This document shows, in pieces, positions 33,598 to 43,585 of a DNA stretch of 64,000 nt (positions are counted from its first letter, which is position 1; each line of letters opens with the position of its first letter). Under the pieces are notes generated by a model that was not told where the DNA came from, made no database searches, and saw nothing but the letters and a program-made list of their open reading frames with translations. Made by a program: the position numbers and the translations under genes. The stretch comes from Wenyingzhuangia gilva. Its GTDB lineage: Bacteria > Bacteroidota > Bacteroidia > Flavobacteriales > Flavobacteriaceae. The DNA is taken from the NCBI RefSeq assembly GCF_030519655.1, contig NZ_JAUMIT010000001.1, positions 496,001 through 560,000 on the forward strand, given 5' to 3'.

Positions 33598-35124
33598 ATG
33601 AATATTGAAGAAATAGAGAATATTGAATTAAAATACTTAGATATTGATGACTATCAAGACTTAAAAGAAGCCATGATTGAAGCTTATAAGGCTTTAGATG
33701 ATTCTTATTGGGAAAAATATCAAATACAGTCTTTGATAGATAAATTTAAAGAAGGCCAAATTGTAATAAAAGTAAACGGACAATTGGCTGGTTGCGCATT
33801 ATCCATCATTGTTGATTACGATAAATTTTCAGACAATCATACTTACGAAGAAATTACCGCAAATTATACTTTTAATTCTCACACAGACAAAGGAGATATG
33901 CTTTATGGAATTGATGTCTTTATCAAACCAGAGTTTAGGGGACTTAGACTGGGTAGAAGATTGTATGATTACCGAAAAGAATTATGTGAAAACTTAAATT
34001 TAAAAGGAATTGTATTTGGAGGGAGAATTCCTAATTACCACAAATATGCACACAGAATTAAACCCAAAACATATATAGAGAAAGTAAAACGTAAGGAAAT
34101 CAATGATCCTGTTTTGAACTTTCAAATTTCTAACGATTTTCATCCAACTAAAATCTTGACAGGTTATTTAGAAGGCGATACTGCTTCTAATGAATTTGCT
34201 GTATTGTTACGTTGGGATAATATTTACTATCAAAAACCAAACAAAATTGCCGCTCACACCAAAGAAGTAGTCCGTTTAGGATTGGTTCAATGGCAAATGA
34301 GACCTTATAAAGATTTGGAAGATTTATTACAGCAAGTCGAGTTTTTTGTGGATGCCGTTTCTGGTTACAGATCAGATTTTGCTTTATTTCCTGAGTTTTT
34401 TAATGCTCCTTTAATGGCAGAAAACAATCATTTACCTGTTTCTGAAGCCATTAGAGAGTTGGCCAAACACACACACGATATAGTTCAAAAATTCTCTGAA
34501 TTATCTATCTCATACAACATCAATATCATTGCGGGTAGTATGCCCGAAATGAAGGGAAACAAACTTTATAATGTAGGTTATTTGTGCAGACGTGATGGAT
34601 CTATAGAGCGTTATGAAAAAATTCACGTAACTCCAGACGAAGAAAAAATATGGGGAATGCAAGGAGGGTCTGAAATTAAAACCTTTGATACTGATTGTGG
34701 TAAAGTAGGAATTTTAATTTGTTATGATTCTGAATTCCCTGAATTAAGCAGGCTATTGGCTGATGACGGAATGGACATTTTATTTGTTCCTTTTTTAACC
34801 GATACTCAAAACGGATACTCCAGAGTTAGGCATTGTGCACAAGCCAGAGCCATAGAAAACGAATGTTATGTAGCCATTGCTGGTAGCGTAGGGAATTTAC
34901 CAAAAGTAGAAAATATGGATATTCAATATGCACAATCTATGGTATTTACCCCTTGTGATTTTGCCTTTCCTACCAACGGAATTAAAGCCGAGGCAACCCC
35001 AAACACAGAAATGATTTTAATTGCTGATGTTGATTTGAGTTTGTTAAAAGAATTAAACCAACACGGAAGCGTTAGAAACTTAAAAGATAGAAGAACAGAT
35101 GTTTACGAGCTGATAAAAAAATAA
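33598..35124 (+). CDS. GNAT acetyltransferase fused to carbon-nitrogen hydrolase
   Basis: A 508-residue two-domain enzyme. Residues 1-200 are a GNAT domain (IDVFIKPEFRGLRLGRRLYDYR holds the acetyl-CoA loop R-G-x-x-x-G-R). Residues 225-508 are a nitrilase-superfamily amidohydrolase with the catalytic triad E266 (LFPEFF), K341 (YEKIHVTPDE) and C375 (LICYDSEFPE). The fusion is recurrent in Bacteroidota and other phyla. By analogy the hydrolase splits an amide or deaminated glutathione-like substrate and the GNAT domain acetylates an amine; the true substrate is unknown. No signal peptide. Confidence 0.92.
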   Translation: MNIEEIENIELKYLDIDDYQDLKEAMIEAYKALDDSYWEKYQIQSLIDKFKEGQIVIKVNGQLAGCALSIIVDYDKFSDNHTYEEITANYTFNSHTDKGDMLYGIDVFIKPEFRGLRLGRRLYDYRKELCENLNLKGIVFGGRIPNYHKYAHRIKPKTYIEKVKRKEINDPVLNFQISNDFHPTKILTGYLEGDTASNEFAVLLRWDNIYYQKPNKIAAHTKEVVRLGLVQWQMRPYKDLEDLLQQVEFFVDAVSGYRSDFALFPEFFNAPLMAENNHLPVSEAIRELAKHTHDIVQKFSELSISYNINIIAGSMPEMKGNKLYNVGYLCRRDGSIERYEKIHVTPDEEKIWGMQGGSEIKTFDTDCGKVGILICYDSEFPELSRLLADDGMDILFVPFLTDTQNGYSRVRHCAQARAIENECYVAIAGSVGNLPKVENMDIQYAQSMVFTPCDFAFPTNGIKAEATPNTEMILIADVDLSLLKELNQHGSVRNLKDRRTDVYELIKK

Positions 35125-35129
35125 GAAAC

Positions 35130-35166
35130 TTGATTTAATTTGAGTAATTTTAAATTACTAAATCAA
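35130..35166. repeat. Imperfect palindrome upstream of the DoxX gene
   Basis: Left arm TTGATTTA...GTAATTT and right arm AAATTACTAAATCAA pair with a 6-base bulge. It ends 14 bp before the DoxX start and lacks a T-run, so it is more likely an operator or leader hairpin than a terminator. Confidence 0.4.
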
Positions 35167-35179
35167 AAAAACTTAAAAA

Positions 35180-35554
35180 ATGAAAAACAAAATTCTTTTT
35201 GTATTGTGTTTATTATTTGGGCTGATGTTTATCAATGCCGGTTTCAACAAATTCTTTAACTACATGCCTATGCCAGAGGAGATGCCTCAGGAATTACTAG
35301 ACGCAATGACTGCTATGATGAGTTTAAAATGGTTAATGCCATTGGTTGCAGTGGTAGAAATAATAGGAGGTGCTTTATTTATTTTTAACAAAACAAGAGC
35401 CCTGGGAGCTATTATTCTTTTACCTGTTATGGTGGGAATTGTACTTTTCCATTTAACTACAGACCATGAATTAATTTTACCAGCTGTTTTTAGTACTATT
35501 TTAATTTGGGCTATGGTAGAAAACAAAGAGAAATACGCACCTTTATTTAAGTAA
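35180..35554 (+). CDS. DoxX family membrane protein
   Basis: A 124-residue protein with four hydrophobic helices (about 4-21, 50-67, 75-92, 98-112). The family start LFGLMFINAGFNKFF is visible, as is the VVEIIGGALFIFNKTRALGAIILLPVM core. DoxX proteins are small quinone-linked or redox-related membrane proteins of unclear activity. Family members accompany MNIO/bufferin clusters elsewhere; such a cluster starts 1.2 kb downstream here, but a terminator and a symporter gene lie between. Monocistronic by appearance. Confidence 0.85.
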   Translation: MKNKILFVLCLLFGLMFINAGFNKFFNYMPMPEEMPQELLDAMTAMMSLKWLMPLVAVVEIIGGALFIFNKTRALGAIILLPVMVGIVLFHLTTDHELILPAVFSTILIWAMVENKEKYAPLFK

Positions 35555-35594
35555 GCAACAATCTTAAAACACTCTCTTGTTTTTATAAAACTTC

Positions 35595-35632
35595 AAAACC
35601 ACTCATGTAATTTTTCATGAGCGGTTTTTTAT
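35595..35632 (+). terminator. DoxX gene terminator
   Basis: The stem AAAACC-CTCATG / CATGAG-GGTTTT with one mismatch is followed by TTTTTT. Confidence 0.85.
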
Positions 35633-35697
35633 TCCTTATACTTAACACCTTCTAAAACTGCTCTAATTTTTGAATTTTAGTTCTAATTAAAAACACC

Positions 35698-35705
35698 TAT
35701 TTTTG
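35698..35705 (+). promoter_or_regulatory. BASS transporter -7 element
   Basis: TATTTTTG matches TAnnTTTG; a TTG lies 25 bp upstream, slightly further than usual. Confidence 0.5.
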
Positions 35706-35751
35706 CTGTTCATCAATAGTATTTTTAGGTTACAAAACAATTTCATCAAGC

Positions 35752-36633
35752 ATGACAGACCTTTTACTCAAAGTCTTTTTACCCTCATCTTTAGCTATTA
35801 TTATGTTAGGTATGGGAATGTCATTAACCATTCATGATTTTACCAGGGTTTTTAGACAACCCAAAGCCATTATTATAGGACTTTTCAATCAAATTTTTAT
35901 ACTACCCATCATTGCCTTTTTATTAGCTATTTTGTTTCATCTTGATACCACCATGGCTGTAGGACTTATTGTACTAGCCTCTTGTCCTGGAGGACCTACA
36001 AGTAATATCATTGCGCAAGTATGTGATGGAAACTTGGCATTATCGGTAACATTAACTGCGGTTGGTAGTTTTACCAGTGTGATCTCTACGCAACTTGTTA
36101 CTTCTTTTGCGTTAACCTATTTTAACACACACACAGGTACCACTATAGAACTTCCTGTTTTAGATACAATGTTTCAAATTATGATGATCACCATGCTTCC
36201 TATTTGCATAGGAATGTTCATTCATGCCTATAAAACCAACTTTGCCCTTCGTATGTTAAAACCCATGAAAATTGCCTCTACCATTATTTTCATTTTAATC
36301 TTTATTGGTATTGTGGCTACTAATTTTAACACCATAGGTCAGGCACTAAAAAAAGTTGGTATTGTAACACTCCTTTTAAATATCAGTATTATTGGATCTG
36401 GATTTCTACTTGCTAAAATTTTTAATTTGGGAAGTAAAAATGCAATTTCCATAGGAGTAGATGGAAGTATTCAGAATGCTACCCTTGGAATTGTAATTGC
36501 TACCTCTATATTAAACAATATAGAAATGGCCATTCCAACTGCCGCATATACCATTTGGATGTACACCACAGGAGGAATATTAATGTGGTATTTTGGAAAA
36601 AAGAAACAAAAAAGAATTCCTTCAACAAAATAG
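35752..36633 (+). CDS. Bile acid:sodium symporter (BASS) family transporter
   Basis: A 293-residue inner-membrane protein with nine to ten helices. The BASS signatures are visible: VGLIVLASCPGGPTSNIIAQVCDGN at about 78-102, with the helix-breaking CPGG, and IGVDGSIQNATLGIVIA near 240-256. Relatives import bile acids, pantoate, pyruvate or sulphated organics with sodium. The substrate here cannot be inferred. The gene has a terminator at 36658-36693 and does not seem to belong to the downstream operon. Confidence 0.9.
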   Translation: MTDLLLKVFLPSSLAIIMLGMGMSLTIHDFTRVFRQPKAIIIGLFNQIFILPIIAFLLAILFHLDTTMAVGLIVLASCPGGPTSNIIAQVCDGNLALSVTLTAVGSFTSVISTQLVTSFALTYFNTHTGTTIELPVLDTMFQIMMITMLPICIGMFIHAYKTNFALRMLKPMKIASTIIFILIFIGIVATNFNTIGQALKKVGIVTLLLNISIIGSGFLLAKIFNLGSKNAISIGVDGSIQNATLGIVIATSILNNIEMAIPTAAYTIWMYTTGGILMWYFGKKKQKRIPSTK

Positions 36634-36657
36634 TCAACCTACTTTATTACAAACACA

Positions 36658-36693
36658 TAAAGCCAATAAATTTAATTTTGTTGGCTTTTTTTG
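36658..36693 (+). terminator. Terminator of the BASS gene
   Basis: The arms AAAGCCAA / TTGGCTTT enclose an AT-rich loop and are followed by T7. Confidence 0.8.
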
Positions 36694-36769
36694 TTGGCTT
36701 TTTTCATTTTTTTATTCTAAAACAAAACCATCTTGATTTCTTTCTCGTAGATATTGCAAACGGAATCAA

Positions 36770-38488
36770 ATGAAACTTTTTTGTAATTTATTTATCTTCT
36801 TACTTTTCTCTTCTTCTTTTGCAAATGCAATTGAATGGCAAGAATTGTCTGCTAACACATTTGAGGAGGCCAAAAAAGACCATAAAATCATTCTGTTAAA
36901 TTTAGAAGCCAACTGGTGTCATTGGTGCCATGTAATGGAAGACAAAACTTATGCAAATAAAGAAGTCATCAATTACTTAAACCAACATTTTATTACAGTA
37001 AAAGCAGATCAAGATGCCCATCCAGAATTATCTAACCGATACAAGGATTACGGATGGCCAGCTACCATTTTTATCAATGCAGACGGGATTGATGTGGTAA
37101 AAAGAGCTGGGTTTATAGCTCCCGATAATTTTTTAAGATTGTTAAAAGCCATTGTTAAAGATCCAAGTCCAGAACAAAAATCTACTGATTTTACTAAAGT
37201 CATCAATAACAATCAAAATAGCTATCAACTAATATCAACCTTAGAAAAGTACTTTATCAATTCTTTAGATATTGAGAAAGGAGGATTTAATCAATCTCAA
37301 AAATATATTGAATATGCCACTTTTGAAAAAGCATTGTTTGATCGTAAAAACGTAAACATCAATACATGGATTTCAAAAAGTATTCAGGGAGCAAAAAAAC
37401 TTAGTGATCCTATTTGGGGAGGTATTTATCAATATTCAACTCATGGAGATTGGAAGCATTTACACTTTGAAAAACTATTAAAAATACAAGCAAGATACTT
37501 ACATATTTTCTTGCTGAATTATGAATACAACAATGACAAAAGTTCTTTAATGTACGCAAAAAAAATAGTGGAGTACGTTGATGGATTTTTAGCCAACCCA
37601 AATGGATTGTACAACAATGCACAAGATGCAGATTTGATTCAAGGAGAACATGCTGCTAACTATTTTAAGCTAAATAATATAGAGAGAAGAAAATTAGGTG
37701 TTCCAAAAGTTGACACCAACACTTTTACAGATAATAATGCTGCTATGGGTAGTGCCTTATTAAGAATGTATTACGTTACCCAAGAAAAAAAATATTTAGA
37801 CAAAGTTAAAAGCATAGAAAATGCTTTGTACAAACGCAAAAAGGTATCGGGTTTATATGCACATGGAAACGAAAACAACAATATCACAAGCTTAAGAGAT
37901 CAAATAGCCATGGCTGATTTTTTAATCAACCTTATTAAAAGTGATATTACAAATAGTAAAGCAAAACAAGAACTAAAATCACTTTGCTCACTTATTAAAA
38001 ACAACTATTTGTTACCAAATGGTACTTTTAAAAGTTTTGAGGGAAACAACGGATTGATGGCTCAACCTTTAAAAGAAGAAAATATTCAGATTGCTAGAAT
38101 TTTTAATTGGTATGGATATTCTTCAAAAGACCATAACTATATCGACATTGCTAAAAAAACATATCAGTTTTTAACCTCAGAGGCTTTAGCAAAAGATTAT
38201 TATTCAGAAGCCTCATTACTTCTTTTAGCCAATGAATTAAAAGGAGAACCTACACAATATGTGTATCTAAATACCGGAAAAGGAAATGAATTTAATCATG
38301 TTTTACAAAGCATGTTGCCATTTTACAGTATGGTTTATATTGGAAAGATTCATCAACTCCCTAAAGAAAAGCAAGAACTATTTGGAAGCTTTAACGAGAA
38401 CGTACTTTTTAGGTGCACCTCAACTTATTGCTCACCCCCCATATACTCGGAGGAGGAACTCAAAAAAGAATTAAATAAAAATAAATAA
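36770..38488 (+). CDS. Secreted DUF255 (SPATA20/YyaL-like) thioredoxin-domain protein
   Basis: A signal peptide (MKLFCNLFIFLLFSSSFANA) directs export. Residues about 22-130 are a DUF255 thioredoxin-like domain with the active site WCHWCH (C50, C53), and DYGWPATIFIN gives the cis-proline region. The remainder resembles the helical-barrel part of YyaL/SPATA20 proteins but is shorter: 572 residues against about 680. Near the C-terminus FRCTSTYCSPPI matches the conserved Cys pair of the family. It lies 21 bp upstream of a Cys-repeat RiPP precursor gene, so it is probably in the same transcript. A thiol-redox role in the envelope, perhaps protecting or delivering the cysteine peptide, is inferred from context. 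Confidence 0.82.
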   Translation: MKLFCNLFIFLLFSSSFANAIEWQELSANTFEEAKKDHKIILLNLEANWCHWCHVMEDKTYANKEVINYLNQHFITVKADQDAHPELSNRYKDYGWPATIFINADGIDVVKRAGFIAPDNFLRLLKAIVKDPSPEQKSTDFTKVINNNQNSYQLISTLEKYFINSLDIEKGGFNQSQKYIEYATFEKALFDRKNVNINTWISKSIQGAKKLSDPIWGGIYQYSTHGDWKHLHFEKLLKIQARYLHIFLLNYEYNNDKSSLMYAKKIVEYVDGFLANPNGLYNNAQDADLIQGEHAANYFKLNNIERRKLGVPKVDTNTFTDNNAAMGSALLRMYYVTQEKKYLDKVKSIENALYKRKKVSGLYAHGNENNNITSLRDQIAMADFLINLIKSDITNSKAKQELKSLCSLIKNNYLLPNGTFKSFEGNNGLMAQPLKEENIQIARIFNWYGYSSKDHNYIDIAKKTYQFLTSEALAKDYYSEASLLLLANELKGEPTQYVYLNTGKGNEFNHVLQSMLPFYSMVYIGKIHQLPKEKQELFGSFNENVLFRCTSTYCSPPIYSEEELKKELNKNK

Positions 38489-38509
38489 TAATCATTAAAT
38501 TCAAATCTC

Positions 38510-38905
38510 ATGAAAAATTTCACAAAAAACTCGTTGTTAACAGGATCATTAATCGCTGGAGCTTTAGTATCATCTACTGATGCAACTGCAACAAATTTAA
38601 CTGTTGATTATTTAGGAACAGGATCACAAGTTCGTACACAATTATTAGCCAACACAAATAATCTTTTATCATCTGCTGTTGATGGATTAAAATCTATTCA
38701 AGGAGCATGTGGAGAAAAGAAAACTACTGATGCTAAATGTGGTGAGGCGAAAGCTAAGGATGCTAAATGTGGTGAAGCAAAAACTAAAGACGCTAAGTGT
38801 GGTGAGGCAAAAGCTAAAGATGCTAAATGTGGTGAAGCGAAAACTAAAGACGCTAAGTGTGGTGAGGCAAAAGCTAAGGATGCTAAATGTGGTGAAAAAA
38901 AATAA
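38510..38905 (+). CDS. Bufferin/HvfA-like RiPP precursor with seven Cys repeats
   Basis: A 131-residue exported peptide. A signal sequence (SLLTGSLIAGALVSS then ATA) covers about 1-28, a leader-like region runs to about 63, and then seven cysteines follow at 67, 77, 87, 97, 107, 117 and 127, exactly ten residues apart. Each is followed by G-E and six are preceded by K, as in the E-G-K-C-G motifs of HvfA. Next come a DUF692/MNIO enzyme and a DUF2063 protein, the standard partners of bufferins and HvfA. In characterised systems the MNIO enzyme converts Cys into thiooxazole or oxazolone-thioamide groups that bind copper. Assignment here rests on motif plus gene order. The absence of any other Cys favours a dedicated metal-binding role. 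Confidence 0.85.
   Translation: MKNFTKNSLLTGSLIAGALVSSTDATATNLTVDYLGTGSQVRTQLLANTNNLLSSAVDGLKSIQGACGEKKTTDAKCGEAKAKDAKCGEAKTKDAKCGEAKAKDAKCGEAKTKDAKCGEAKAKDAKCGEKK
38729..38905 (+). repeat. 30-bp tandem coding repeat in the RiPP precursor gene
   Basis: Five full 30-bp units start at 38729, 38759, 38789, 38819 and 38849, and a sixth partial unit runs to the stop codon. Each encodes D-A-K-C-G-E-A-K-(A/T)-K. A and T alternate between units; the 60-bp blocks 38759-38818 and 38819-38878 differ at only about two bases, pointing to recent duplication. Confidence 0.92.
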
Positions 38906-38922
38906 TAACCATCCCTAAATTT

Positions 38923-38957
38923 TAGACGGATCAAACTCATTTTGATCCGTCTATTTT
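38923..38957 (+). terminator. Hairpin between RiPP precursor and MNIO genes (attenuator/partial terminator)
   Basis: A perfect 13-bp stem (TAGACGGATCAAA / TTTGATCCGTCTA) with a 5-base loop lies 17 bp after the precursor stop and is followed by only TTTT. It probably stops or protects part of the transcripts, so that precursor mRNA exceeds enzyme mRNA. Confidence 0.7.
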
Positions 38958-38969
38958 AAACAAAAAATT

Positions 38970-39800
38970 ATGGTAGGAATTGGATACAGAAAAGACTTTG
39001 CAGAAGATTTTGCAGATAACAATGTTTTAACACCTTCTTTTATAGAAGTCGCTCCAGAAAACTGGATGAACGTTGGTGGATATTATAAAAAGCTGTTTGA
39101 TAAAGCTTTGGAAAAACATCCTCTTTTTGTACACGGCCTATCTTTATCTGTGGGAAGTCCCGAAGGAATTGATATTAACTTTGTAAAACAAGTAAAACAA
39201 TTTTTGGACGATACCAACACGGTTGAATATTCAGAACATTTAAGTTTTTCTAAATGTGATAATGCTCATTTGTTTGATTTGTTACCCATTCCTTTTACAC
39301 AAGATGCTGTAAAACACGTAGCCAAAAACATTCGTTTGGCTCAAGATATTTTAGAAAGAAAAATTGCCATAGAAATTGTGAGTTATTACTCTCCGATTGC
39401 AGCAGAAATGACCGAATTGGAATTTATTAACAATGTTATTAAAGAAGCTGATTGTAACTTATTATTAGATGTAAATAATATTTATGTCAACAGTTTTAAT
39501 CACCAATACAATGCTCAAGAATTTTTAGCAAACCTAGATTTAGACAGAGTAAAATATATACACATGGCAGGTCACACTCAAGTCTCAGAAGATTTGATTA
39601 TTGATACCCATGGAGAAAACATTATAGATCCCGTGTATGATTTGTTTGGTTTTACCATGCAACAACTAAAACGTGATGTACCAGTATTGTTAGAACGAGA
39701 TTTTAACATTCCAGAATTGGACATTTTACAATGTGAAATGAATCAATTACAAAACATTAAAACCAATAGTTTAAAAAAACATTCCCATGTTATTCGCTAA
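38970..39800 (+). CDS. MNIO family (DUF692) peptide-modifying iron enzyme, BufB/HvfB-like
   Basis: A 276-residue TIM-barrel protein of the multinuclear non-heme iron-dependent oxidative enzyme family, which also includes MbnB. Candidate iron ligands are in the family positions: H55 (FVHGLSLS), H90 (YSEHLSF), E135 (AIEIVSYY), D167/N170 (LLLDVNNIYVNSFNH, with H178), H198 and H202 (HMAGH), D212/H214 (DTHGEN) and E242. It starts GIGYRKDF and contains EVAPENW, both typical. It would oxidise the cysteines of the precursor encoded just upstream. Its 3' end overlaps the DUF2063 gene by 14 bp, indicating tight co-expression. Confidence 0.93.
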   Translation: MVGIGYRKDFAEDFADNNVLTPSFIEVAPENWMNVGGYYKKLFDKALEKHPLFVHGLSLSVGSPEGIDINFVKQVKQFLDDTNTVEYSEHLSFSKCDNAHLFDLLPIPFTQDAVKHVAKNIRLAQDILERKIAIEIVSYYSPIAAEMTELEFINNVIKEADCNLLLDVNNIYVNSFNHQYNAQEFLANLDLDRVKYIHMAGHTQVSEDLIIDTHGENIIDPVYDLFGFTMQQLKRDVPVLLERDFNIPELDILQCEMNQLQNIKTNSLKKHSHVIR

Positions 39801-40503
39801 AACACATCAACACCAAAGCAACTTGGCTACTTATTGCCGAACAGGAAATCCTGTTGAGATAAAAGGTGCTGTGCAAAAAAACTTAACACACTACAGACGT
39901 TTGGTTTTTAACAATGTGTTAGATACTTTAGAAACAGCCTATCCAATTACTAAAAATTTATTAGGAGATGAAAGTTGGGAAACCATTGTGAATCGTTTTT
40001 TTAGCACTTATAATATTAAGAGTCCACAAATTTGGAGAATGCCCGAAGAGTTTAAAAACTACCTTATTGAACAAGAAAAAGATCTTTTAATCACCTACCC
40101 TTTTTTAGAAAACCTATTAGAATTTGAATGGCTTGAAATAGAAATATTTATGATGCCTGATGTACCTCATAAAAAATATAAAGACGGTTTTTATACACTA
40201 AATCCAGAAATAGATATGATGATGCTCTCTTACCCTGTACATATTAAAAACCCAAACTTAATTACAGAAAAAGACAAAGGCTCTTATTTTGTATCGCTGC
40301 ACAGAAATCCAGATACAGGCTCAATTCAGTTTACCAATTTATCTATTCCCTTTGTAGATGTTTTAGAACATTTAGCTGCAAATCCATTAACAGAAAAAGA
40401 TATCAAACAAATTTTAAAAAAATACGCTTCTGAAAATGAGGTAAATATTGCTTATGATGAATTCATCAAACAATCTTTGACTACACAATTATTATTTAAG
40501 TAA
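39787..40503 (+). CDS. DUF2063 family RiPP partner protein, BufC/HvfC-like
   Basis: This 238-residue protein has the DUF2063 N-terminal helical domain (HYRRLVFNNVLDTLETAYPITKNLLGDESW, then F..WPRMPEEF-like IWRMPEEFKNYL), followed by an alpha/beta C-terminal half. In related systems it forms a complex with the MNIO enzyme and helps recruit the precursor leader, though the domain is often annotated as putative DNA-binding. The overlap with the MNIO gene and the order precursor-MNIO-DUF2063 support the partner role here. No signal peptide, so modification would take place in the cytoplasm before export. The operon has no clear terminator downstream. Confidence 0.85.
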   Translation: MLFAKTHQHQSNLATYCRTGNPVEIKGAVQKNLTHYRRLVFNNVLDTLETAYPITKNLLGDESWETIVNRFFSTYNIKSPQIWRMPEEFKNYLIEQEKDLLITYPFLENLLEFEWLEIEIFMMPDVPHKKYKDGFYTLNPEIDMMMLSYPVHIKNPNLITEKDKGSYFVSLHRNPDTGSIQFTNLSIPFVDVLEHLAANPLTEKDIKQILKKYASENEVNIAYDEFIKQSLTTQLLFK

Positions 40504-40661
40504 TAACTTCCAACGTCAACTTAATACGTTCTCTCAGATTCCTTTGATTAACATCAATTAAATAAAACCTGTTATGGCATCTTTCTTGCTCCATTTATAA
40601 ACATCAATGGTCAAGTTTTATTGATATAACAAGGCCTATTTTAATCTTAAAAAAGATATTT

Positions 40662-41306
40662 ATGAAAATTTTAGTGATAGGAGCAAGCGGAAGAGTTGGA
40701 AAAATTTTAACAAAAAAATTGTTAGAAAACAATCATCAAGTTATTGGAACCACCAGACAAGACGAATCTCTTTTTAGCAATCAAAATTACACACAAATTT
40801 CTTTAGACTTGCTTGGAGAAATAGAAGAGATACAAGAAAAAATTCCTAATCATATTGATGCAATCTATTTTGTTTCTGGATCTAGAGCTAAAAATTTACT
40901 TGCTTTAGATTTACATGGAGCCATTAAAACCATGAAAATTGCTGAGAACAAAAACATAAAACAATATATTATGCTAAGCGCTGTATTTTCATTAGAAACC
41001 AATAAATGGAAAGAAGAAGGATTTGATGAGTTGAAAGATTATTACATCGCTAAACATTATGCAGACGAATGGTTGATTAGAAACACCAACTTAAACTACA
41101 CCATATTGCAACCAAGTGCTTTAACAGAGACTACTGGTACAGGGAAAATTGAAGTAGACATTCAACACCCTGGTGAAAATGCTATAGAAGATGTAGCCAC
41201 TACCTTACTTGAAGTTTTAAACAATAAAGCAACCTTTAAAAAAGTAATTTCCATGCACAGTGGAACAACCCCTATTAAAGAAGCCATAAATAACATAGGA
41301 CAATAA
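40662..41306 (+). CDS. NAD(P)-binding atypical short-chain dehydrogenase-like protein
   Basis: A 214-residue Rossmann-fold protein starting MKILVIGASGRVGKIL (glycine-rich G-A-S-G-R-V-G). It has a YIMLSAVFSLE region and Y-I-A-K-H as the YxxxK-like pair, placing it with the NAD(P)H-binding/atypical SDR group (NmrA- and YwnB-like). These proteins may be reductases or redox sensors; the substrate is unknown. It stands alone after the RiPP operon with a 158-bp gap that shows no terminator. Confidence 0.85.
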   Translation: MKILVIGASGRVGKILTKKLLENNHQVIGTTRQDESLFSNQNYTQISLDLLGEIEEIQEKIPNHIDAIYFVSGSRAKNLLALDLHGAIKTMKIAENKNIKQYIMLSAVFSLETNKWKEEGFDELKDYYIAKHYADEWLIRNTNLNYTILQPSALTETTGTGKIEVDIQHPGENAIEDVATTLLEVLNNKATFKKVISMHSGTTPIKEAINNIGQ

Positions 41307-41361
41307 ACCAAAACTTGTCTTAAAATTAGGAGCCACTTGAGTTTATAATTTTATTACATTG

Positions 41362-41381
41362 TAGCTAATTAAAGTTAGCTA
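41362..41381 (+). promoter_or_regulatory. Small hairpin over the DUF2339 start codon
   Basis: TAGCTAA (41362-41368) and TTAGCTA (41375-41381) can pair; the 3' arm includes the A of the ATG. It might limit translation initiation. Confidence 0.3.
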
Positions 41382-43585
41382 TGAAAGACATTGATGAATT
41401 ATATAGAAGACTTGAGGTGCTGGAACAGAAACAGCTCTCTTTCCAAAAAGAAATACAAGTTTTAAAACAGGAAATTCAACATTTTCACGAACCTGTTAAA
41501 CAAGCTGTTCCTGTTCACCAAACCTATACACCTATTCAAAAAATCAAAGTTGAAAAGAAAGAAAAAACACCTGTTTCTTTTAATTTTGAAAAATTAATTG
41601 GTGAAAATCTTATCAATAAAATAGGAATCATCATTACTATTATAGGAGTTTCTATTGGTGCAAAATACTCTATTGAACATGATTTAATTTCGCCAATTAC
41701 CAGAATTCTCTTAAGTTACTTAGCTGGTTTTATCTTACTAGGTTTAGGATATAAATTAAAAACAAAATATTCAAACTATGCAGCTGTTTTAACTAGCGGA
41801 GCTTACACAATTCTCTATTTTATTACATTTATTGCTTATAGTTTTTACCAATTGTTACCCATGTGGTTTGCCTTTTTAACCATGTGTTCTTTAACAATTT
41901 TAACTGTTTTTACCGCTCTAAAACTCAACAAACAAGTCATTGCTCATATCGGATTGGTTGGTGCTTATGCCGTCCCTTTGCTGCTTAGTAGCAACAATGG
42001 AAACATAGCTGCTTTATTTGTTTATGTCGGAATTATCAATATTGGTATTTCATATATTGCTATTAAAAGATATTGGAAGCCTCTATTTTATAATGCTTTT
42101 GGCGTTACATGGGTTTTATTTATTTCTTGGTTTTTTAATGACTATGAATACGAACAGCATTTTGGAATTGCTTTTGGTTTTTTAAGTGTTATTTATATTA
42201 CCTTTTATAGCATTTCTTTATCTTATAAATTGATCAAAAAAGAACCTTTTTTAGCGGGTGATGTCATTTTAATTCTCAGCAACACCCTTTTGTTTTTCTG
42301 CTTAGGATATCTTGTTTTAAACAGTCATCCATCAACTAAAAATATTATTGGGCTATTCACCATTTATATTGCTTTTTTACATGGACTGGTCGCCATACTT
42401 TTATACAAGCAATCCGTAAAAGACAAAAATCTACAACAACTTGTCATAGGATTTTGTATTCTATTTATCACCTTAACTTTTCCTATACAATTTGAGGGAA
42501 GTTGGATTTCTATTTTTTGGATTGGTGAAGCAACCATTTTATTTTGGATTGGTAGAACTCAACAAAAAGGATTTTATGAAAAACTTTCCTATCCATTAAT
42601 TGTATTGTCTTTTTATAGCCTGCTTATTTATTGGTTTAAATATTATGATGCTTCAGGTACTGAAACAAAAATCAACTTATTTTTAAATCCATATTTTCTA
42701 AGCTCGGTCTTGTTTATTACTTGTATGTCTTATCTTAATTTCATCCATCTAAAACACAAAAGCAAGCTAGAAAACAAGTCTAATTTACACTCTATTTTTT
42801 CACATGTCATTCCTTCCCTTTTAATCGTGAGCACCTACTTGGCTTTTTATTTTGAAATTGCTACCTATTGGGAACAACTTTATACAAAATCGATGAATCA
42901 AGATGAGATGATTCTAAATCGAAGTATCTTAAAATTTAAAGTGATTTGGCTCATAAATTATAGCCTAATTTTTATGACTATTTTAAACTACATCAATCAC
43001 AAAAAGATAAAAAACAATAGTTTAGCAAAGGTTTCAATAATCTTTACCTTTTTATTTACGCTTATTTATTTAACCTTTGGCCTTTTAAATTTAAGTGATT
43101 TAAGAGATACTTATCTAAATGATCTAAATCCATCTCCCAATACTTATTTTATTAGCATTAGATATCTCTCGTATCTATTTATAGGACTTTTGTTTTACAC
43201 AACATATCCTAACAGAAAAGTGATCTCTAGCAAAATTTTCGATTGTTTTTTACACCTAACTATATTATGGATTTTAAGCAGTGAACTCATCAATATCTTA
43301 GATTTATTTACTACTGTACCTTCGTATAAATTGGGCTTGAGTATTTTATGGGCCATTTATTCCTTAGGATTGATTTGCTTAGGAATTTGGAAACAAAAAC
43401 AGCATTTAAGAATCATTGCCATGGTATTGTTTGGTGTTATTCTAATAAAACTGTTCTTGTATGACATCTCTCATTTAGGAACCATTTCTAAAATCATAGT
43501 CTTTACTTTACTCGGAATTATTTTATTATTGATTTCCTTTTTATACAACAAATACAAAAATATCATCAACACTAAGGAAAATTAA
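41381..43585 (+). CDS. DUF2339 multi-spanning membrane protein
   Basis: A 734-residue protein. Residues 1-40 form a coiled coil (RRLEVLEQKQLSFQKEIQVLKQEI), followed by a linker, the family signature FEKLIGENLINKIGIIITIIGVSIGAKYSI (given here in part, about 68-95) and some 18-20 hydrophobic helices to the C-terminus. DUF2339 proteins are large inner-membrane proteins of unknown function, common in Bacteroidota and Proteobacteria. There are no catalytic motifs. Monocistronic with a strong terminator. Confidence 0.88.
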   Translation: MKDIDELYRRLEVLEQKQLSFQKEIQVLKQEIQHFHEPVKQAVPVHQTYTPIQKIKVEKKEKTPVSFNFEKLIGENLINKIGIIITIIGVSIGAKYSIEHDLISPITRILLSYLAGFILLGLGYKLKTKYSNYAAVLTSGAYTILYFITFIAYSFYQLLPMWFAFLTMCSLTILTVFTALKLNKQVIAHIGLVGAYAVPLLLSSNNGNIAALFVYVGIINIGISYIAIKRYWKPLFYNAFGVTWVLFISWFFNDYEYEQHFGIAFGFLSVIYITFYSISLSYKLIKKEPFLAGDVILILSNTLLFFCLGYLVLNSHPSTKNIIGLFTIYIAFLHGLVAILLYKQSVKDKNLQQLVIGFCILFITLTFPIQFEGSWISIFWIGEATILFWIGRTQQKGFYEKLSYPLIVLSFYSLLIYWFKYYDASGTETKINLFLNPYFLSSVLFITCMSYLNFIHLKHKSKLENKSNLHSIFSHVIPSLLIVSTYLAFYFEIATYWEQLYTKSMNQDEMILNRSILKFKVIWLINYSLIFMTILNYINHKKIKNNSLAKVSIIFTFLFTLIYLTFGLLNLSDLRDTYLNDLNPSPNTYFISIRYLSYLFIGLLFYTTYPNRKVISSKIFDCFLHLTILWILSSELINILDLFTTVPSYKLGLSILWAIYSLGLICLGIWKQKQHLRIIAMVLFGVILIKLFLYDISHLGTISKIIVFTLLGIILLLISFLYNKYKNIINTKEN

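Follow-up and report, generated by a model that had tools for sequence, protein, structure and literature searches.

A probable captophorin-type operon of Wenyingzhuangia gilva with a thioredoxin-like gene and a ten-residue cysteine array

The closest described systems and the Wenyingzhuangia unit

HvfBC-type enzymes are reported to turn precursors that carry a signal peptide into copper-binding 5-thiooxazole peptides, with periplasmic export forming part of the model of the same authors (PMC13419390, PMC13097082). In the oxazolin system HvfABC(X) of Haemophilus influenzae, a signal-peptide precursor with C-terminal K-C-G cores is accompanied by an HvfB-type MNIO and a partner described by DUF2063 and a RiPP (ribosomally synthesized and post-translationally modified peptide) recognition element (PMC13419390). 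The fontiphorin system FonABC, of the Lys-Cys captophorins, likewise combines a repetitive Lys-Cys precursor with an MNIO and a PME type 1 (PME1) protein, and its category is described by a 5-mer repeat that contains a Lys-Cys motif, most commonly EGKCG (PMC13097082). Exported repeat precursors encoded with MNIO and DUF2063 genes also characterize the Buf_EGKCG family (PMC12452194). Here we describe four plus-strand genes at positions 36770-40503 of a 64,000-nucleotide stretch of the Wenyingzhuangia gilva genome (contig NZ_JAUMIT010000001.1, positions 496,001 to 560,000; hereafter the window), which encode a thioredoxin-like protein, a RiPP precursor, an MNIO and a DUF2063 protein (Table 1). 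We read these four genes as a likely copper-peptide operon of the captophorin type, in the Lys-Cys (HvfA-like) group, to which one function has been added. The kind of operon is already known, but its cysteine array is here unusually sparse and perfectly regular, and an exported-looking thioredoxin-like gene is linked to it.

The MNIO scores 313.7 bits against PF05114 (cut-off 25), the only match to that family in the genome, and 375.3 bits against the HvfB model NF003818 (cut-off 360). The BufB model of NCBIfam gives 260.5 bits against a cut-off of 310, and the cut-offs of ChrH, MbnB and ApyH are not reached. The best solved match is 3BWW from Histophilus (E 1.8e-69), that of MbnB being far weaker (E 4.9e-8). 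The partner protein scores 62.4 bits against PF09836/DUF2063 (cut-off 27.2), its best solved match being 3DEE (E 2.8e-6). The precursor reaches 26.7 bits with NF050137 (KCGExKCG_twice, cut-off 19.5) and matches no Pfam family at E 0.1, hence no DUF2282. An earlier sequence-only reading of the window had called the locus a bufferin/HvfABC-type system and proposed a search with four models. That search, now run, returned DUF692 and DUF2063 but neither DUF2282 nor, at its cut-off, the HvfA equivalog. The HvfA/HvfB-type half of the call is borne out by the HvfB cut-off and 3BWW; the bufferin half is not. The same reading had placed the DUF2063 gene after the MNIO gene with a 14-bp overlap (39787-39800), which is correct. 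It had begun the interval rightly at 36770 but overlooked both the 572-aa gene located there and the intergenic hairpin. Of the two chemistries that it offered, the oxazolone-thioamide of HvfA has since been revised to 5-thiooxazole (PMC13097082, PMC13419390).

Iron ligands, whose lack in the enzyme had been named as grounds for abandoning the assignment, appear to be in place, as 12 MNIOs of the order show no variation at ten putative ligand positions (H55, H90, E135, D167, N169, N170, H198, D212, H214 and E242). Three of these ten, N169, D212 and H214, appear to correspond to N175, D242 and H244 of HvfB, which are reported as essential (PMC13419390); HvfB numbering was reached via the 3BWW alignment with an inferred offset of one. 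Residues "RK" and "RDF" occupy the places of FonB R15/R16 and D249/F250, a correspondence of motifs rather than of aligned FonB sequence. Among named records, the best MNIO matches come mostly from Bacteroidota. A maximum-likelihood tree of 56 MNIO rows shows the genus as a tight clade within a group that is largely Bacteroidota, and six Pseudomonadota rows stand apart from this group at 100/99. The group also includes single rows with the labels Chlamydiota, Verrucomicrobiota and Beijerinckiaceae. The last (L045, Pseudomonadota by its label) pairs with Sediminibacterium and represents either a misbinned contig or a transfer; the other two are MNIO-DUF2063 pairs labelled Waddliaceae/Chlamydiota and Verrucomicrobia (L058, L060).

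All four genes recur in three further genomes of the genus, with 21 bp between the thioredoxin-like gene and the precursor in the window and the precursor preceding the MNIO in all four members. The ratio of nonsynonymous to synonymous substitution rates between the window and the three congeners is 0.035-0.22 across the four genes, the repeat units of the precursor being paired by plain alignment. Among seven genomes of the genus, a full-length thioredoxin homologue is found in four and the MNIO in the same four. In G004 and G006, which are devoid of the unit, the 508-aa gene (Table 1) directly abuts a 122-aa gene, and in G002 all four genes are inserted between these two anchors. The unit thus consists of the thioredoxin-like, precursor, MNIO and DUF2063 genes, which are present or absent together within the genus. 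G005 was left out of this comparison (508-aa anchor orthologue not found; genome 85% complete). In every one of 93 scanned locus records, with one or more duplicates among them, an MNIO match stands next to a DUF2063 match.

Several observations sit awkwardly with the captophorin assignment or with a fixed unit. The precursor scores 13.7 bits with the HvfA equivalog of NCBIfam (cut-off 95) and the DUF2063 protein 110.6 bits with HvfC (cut-off 142). The residue after E135 is Ile in the window MNIO and Asn in 3BWW. The five-residue cysteine doublet of related precursors is missing from those of the genus. A look by eye recognized no copper genes near the unit. The position of the unit is not constant, since in the window it lies two genes beyond the 508-aa gene, behind DoxX and symporter genes, unlike in G002, where it adjoins the 508-aa gene. 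Finally, neither a DoxX nor a sigma gene lies inside the window's unit. DoxX is found upstream in three of the four genus members, and because no DoxX match lies near the cassette of G002, it was rejected as a member of the unit.

Table 1 Features of the four-gene unit and its surroundings (positions in the window)
Feature	Coordinates	Strand	Remarks
Thioredoxin-like gene	36770-38488	+	572 aa; PF03190
Thioredoxin active-site codons C-H-W-C, residues 50-53	36917-36928	+	both cysteines invariant
C-terminal C-x4-C, residues 549-554	38414-38431	+	second invariant cysteine pair
RiPP precursor	38510-38905	+	131 aa; NF050137
Leader motif LGTGSQVR	38612-38635	+	within precursor
Seven CGE cores, DAKCGEAKxK decapeptides	38708-38896	+	proposed 5-thiooxazole sites
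Intergenic hairpin, 13 pairs, 5-nt loop	38923-38953	+	between precursor and MNIO
HvfB-type MNIO (DUF692/PF05114)	38970-39800	+	276 aa; NF003818
DUF2063 partner (PME type 1, HvfC-like)	39787-40503	+	238 aa; PF09836
Conserved block AAAACC-N16-CGTAGATAT...	36719-36769	+	directly upstream of thioredoxin-like gene, four genus members
508-aa protein, acetyltransferase then carbon-nitrogen hydrolase domain	33598-35124		PF00583, PF00795; served as locus anchor
DoxX gene	35180-35554		two genes upstream of four-gene unit

The thioredoxin-like gene as an optional partner

The 572-aa protein carries the thioredoxin motif WCHWC and scores 87.3 bits with PF03190 (cut-off 27), a family matched by all 13 aligned homologues. 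Its best solved match is 7TKV, of which a profile of these homologues reaches residues 22-334 over positions 16-298. In both proteins a helical domain comes after the thioredoxin domain; the profile aligns that of the window protein with 7TKV and partly with GH76 mannanases. A single-sequence structure model of the protein (pLDDT 34.6) was unusable. Such helical-barrel proteins go by the name SSP411/YyaL-like, and SSP411 and YyaL are thioredoxin-barrel proteins of PF03190. The window gene differs from these proteins in belonging to a branch of about 570 aa that looks exported and co-occurs with captophorin operons; the signal-peptide-like character of its N-terminus, and of those of its homologues, was judged by eye. 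Two cysteine pairs, C50/C53 and C549/C554, are invariant in the 13 homologues.

Sampling 395 genomes from the order gave four with the full-length homologue, all of which possess an HvfB-type MNIO (10 of 395 overall). A class sample, again of 395 genomes, gave seven, and six of these have the MNIO (20 of 395 overall). Fisher's test gives p values of 2e-7 (order) and 5e-8 (class), or 1e-4 and 5e-4 when genera are counted. These counts include the window genome, without which the proportions are 3/3 and 5/6. The order count of MNIOs comprises ten matches with E <= 1.1e-99 and leaves out G339 (41% identity, two stops) and weaker matches (21-35%); that of thioredoxin homologues comprises four matches with E <= 8.6e-79, the next lying at 6.3e-31. 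The MNIO and thioredoxin samples, in order and class alike, were taken as the same genomes by their agreeing identifiers. Outside the genus, linkage takes two forms: in G614 the order is precursor-MNIO-DUF2063-DoxX-thioredoxin, with the DoxX confirmed by Pfam, and G045 has its thioredoxin gene on the upstream side of the precursor gene.

The strongest alternative holds that only the three core genes form a captophorin operon and that the thioredoxin-like gene is a mere neighbour or a general stress protein. In its favour, only two of the 11 genomes inspected outside the genus have the gene near the cassette; G803 and G805 entered this count via MNIO-bearing loci and carry no weight for co-occurrence. 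The unlinked copies include that of G602, which has no HvfB-type MNIO at E 1e-70. Among 16 named MNIO-bearing genomes, four contain a thioredoxin homologue (two of these are G614 and G576, by identical coordinates) and 12 show none at E 1e-30. The wider PF03190-type match is common: at E 1e-20, 51 of the 395 genomes from the order have one. The two co-occurrence samples overlap, the tests ignore kinship and the order thresholds were set after the matches had been seen. On the other side stand (i) the joint presence or absence of the four genes in the genus and the 21-bp distance to the precursor, (ii) the conserved block before the thioredoxin-like gene, the linkage in two other lineages and the co-occurrence tests, and (iii) the location of two of the nine unlinked copies (G576, G709) less than 4 kb from a contig edge. 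We hold the mere-neighbour account to be less likely than not. As the gene is unlinked in 9 of 11 genomes outside the genus and found in 4 of 16 named MNIO genomes, it is an optional partner of the captophorin operon and not a core part.

We propose that this partner is a periplasmic redox protein acting on the peptide. A search of the main texts in a limited literature collection returned no article that joins MNIO with thioredoxin, or DUF692 with both thioredoxin and Bacteroidetes; the main text of the captophorin paper mentions neither "bacteroid" nor thioredoxin (PMC13097082), and that of the MNIO landscape study mentions none of Bacteroidota, thioredoxin or "flavobacter" (PMC12452194). 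The proposed role fits the suspicion of the fontiphorin authors that thiols drive disulfide aggregation of their peptide; the same authors leave additional factors such as DoxX possible (PMC13097082). Tentatively, one might go further: a branch of these bacteria may have evolved an exported thiol-disulfide machine specific to captophorins, coupled in the genus with conversion of the paired-cysteine array to a pure single-site array and a different metal-binding geometry. The two invariant cysteine pairs might then keep thiooxazole thiols reduced or load and unload Cu(I) outside the cytoplasm, a picture that we hold with equal reserve. If it is true, each decapeptide would provide a single metal site in place of the paired arrangement. 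In any case, a thioredoxin-like gene that accompanies the operon is a testable candidate for post-export reduction and copper exchange of 5-thiooxazole peptides.

Some homologues elsewhere have features of their own. The thioredoxin-barrel homologue of Chitinophaga sp. sic0106 (L213; L215:6221-7735) contains one in-frame TGA, which reflects either a decaying gene or a sequencing error. A gene for the monothiol bacilliredoxin BrxC (PF11009) lies 3' of the thioredoxin-barrel gene on the same strand at L196:9107-9442 and L198:1899-2237, the latter copy scoring 121.9 bits, and L214 has an open reading frame similar to the BrxC gene on the opposite strand.

The ten-residue cysteine array

The precursor carries seven CGE motifs with cysteines at residues 67, 77 ... 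127, each exactly ten apart, as had been noticed from the sequence alone; six lie within DAKCGE and the first within GACGE. In 200,000 shuffled versions of the protein, CGE never reached three copies. At nucleotide level, the array repeats in tandem every 30 bp, with a higher-order period of 60 bp. The export signal, also part of the earlier description, is a signal-peptide-like N-terminus judged by eye. The precursors of the three congeners contain 9, 8 and 8 cysteines, again all ten residues apart, which shows that copy number varies while spacing is fixed.

These precursors were compared with those of 53 further Bacteroidota-group loci, of which two gave no precursor and the rest 39 distinct ones, and with those of 64 loci from elsewhere, of which 16 gave none and the rest 48 distinct ones, identical precursors being counted once. 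The Bacteroidota-group set consists of relatives of the class plus one contig labelled Beijerinckiaceae. At least one cysteine pair at a distance of five residues is present in all 39 Bacteroidota-group precursors from outside the genus, in 47 of the 48 remaining ones and in none of the four of the genus. Among the precursors compared, only this genus has all its spacings at ten. Ten-residue spacing as such is not unique to it, a notion that we rejected on account of four Bacteroidota-group precursors (L181, L197, L199, L201, out of 39) with at least two such spacings beside a doublet. Since these relatives mix doublets with decapeptides such as KDAKCGEKKA, the window array stands at the far end of a continuum. 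Its register, DAKCG-EAKxK, suggests that the cysteine of every second five-mer was lost. The contrast with EGKCG arrays drawn by the sequence-only reading stands as a difference in layout, yet the five-residue register is kept and mixed forms exist among relatives.

The leader motif LG[ST]GxxVR occurs in 4 of 4 genus members, 36 of 39 other Bacteroidota-group precursors and none of the 48 others, and 41 of the 48 precursors from outside the group have GY in the leader. Compared with oxazolin, whose array reads AEGKCGEGKCG, the window has single cores ten residues apart and another leader. Its unit contains a thioredoxin-like gene and lacks an internal DoxX, and its proteins fall below the HvfA and HvfC equivalog cut-offs. 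Fontiphorin has seven modified sites and the window precursor seven cores, but fontiphorin consists of EGKCG five-mers and the window array of decapeptides (PMC13097082). Of the traits of Lys-Cys captophorins, the window has the HvfB-type MNIO with its putative iron-site residues, the PME1 protein and the repeated Lys-Cys core, and lacks the five-mer repeat.

Loss of the doublet raises the question of whether the MNIO acts otherwise here, giving another product, serving another metal or modifying only some of the cores. The complete absence of doublets from the four genus precursors, set against their presence in all 39 others of the Bacteroidota group, speaks for such a change, as does the report that FonBC modified an AKCGA variant once only (PMC13097082). 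The C-G-E core and the ligand positions are nevertheless unchanged, and the enzyme is 53-71% identical to MNIOs whose loci have doublet precursors, so we consider an altered activity unlikely. A natural single-core array is a substrate for asking if MNIOs and copper need paired sites.

That the peptide is a strict bufferin (DUF2282 or Buf2) is very improbable. Buf1 and Buf2 share with the window the MNIO family and the A-B-C gene order, and the BufB score indicates a related enzyme, but the score misses the BufB cut-off where that of HvfB is reached, and the precursor has no DUF2282. Furthermore, bufferin precursors are described as DUF2282 or 6/12-Cys proteins, and four or six conserved cysteines are reported for bufferins (PMC12452194), in contrast to the K-C-G repeat cysteines of the window. 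A bufferin proper was rejected on these profile cut-offs, the bufferin models applied being BufB and, through Pfam, DUF2282. Least credible is the idea of a Cys/Lys protein akin to a metallothionein, whose array would bind metal without modification while the MNIO acts elsewhere. Its composition alone speaks for this, against the single PF05114 match in the genome and the precursor preceding the MNIO in 4 of 4 genus members.

Intergenic hairpin, proposed mechanism and upstream region

The hairpin between the precursor and MNIO genes folds far better than shuffled sequences (z -6.9). Across the four genus genomes, 96.2% of its cells are paired, compared with 29-48% in slid controls, and at four pairs, each in a single genome, both partners show compensatory change. 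Of 26 loci folded, 23 have a strong hairpin (z < -3 against shuffles) in this gap, among them 19 of the 22 from outside the genus; the relatives' hairpins are mostly unrelated in sequence and often have a T-run. Of the 27 loci submitted to this survey, L015 was too short, and L021, L043 and L046 fell short of the threshold; the hairpins of L051, L197 and L199 are near-identical, and L191 and L192 share a genome. We infer that the hairpin would act as an attenuator or as a 3'-end or mRNA stabilizer that keeps the precursor in excess over the enzymes.

Combining these findings with the described systems, we propose the following model for the captophorin-type operon of the window. The precursor would be synthesized with a signal peptide of the Sec type. 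Before export, up to seven of its CGE cysteines would be oxidized to 5-thiooxazoles by the cytoplasmic MNIO and its DUF2063 partner, the LG[ST]GxxVR leader probably aiding recognition. The hairpin 3' of the precursor gene would hold peptide output above that of the enzymes. By analogy with HvfA and fontiphorin, the peptide would be exported and its signal cleaved, and the thiooxazoles would bind Cu(I). The exported thioredoxin-like protein would most likely keep thiooxazole thiols or unmodified cysteines reduced, or pass electrons or copper, in either case leaving the peptide metal-competent. The leader motif and the hairpin are also handles for finding further such operons.

The conserved block before the thioredoxin-like gene is mostly identical in the four-genome alignment, and the sequence farther upstream diverges. 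By this pattern, the block is a probable promoter or operator of the unit. Its layout resembles that of promoters of extracytoplasmic function (ECF) sigma factors, which is a guess: exact AAACC-N16-CGTAGA has one match in the whole genome against three for the reversed control, and a looser ECF-like pattern was found 30 times in the loci of 25 relatives against 52.6 in shuffles, i.e. without enrichment. Consensus scans were uninformative because site counts match those of shuffles (promoter-like sites 21 versus 20.7, terminator-like 2 versus 2.1), and Rfam yielded nothing at gathering score over 34000-42000. A terminator-like hairpin with a T-run, of a kind about as frequent in shuffles, lies at 36659-36688, between the gene of the bile-acid-symporter family and the unit. 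Eight loci of relatives (L003, L161, L163, L165, L192, L197, L199, L201) contain small Cys-bearing open reading frames resembling anti-sigma factors, which Pfam did not confirm for L003, together with sigma-factor genes beside the captophorin genes, confirmed by PF04542 in L003 and L161.

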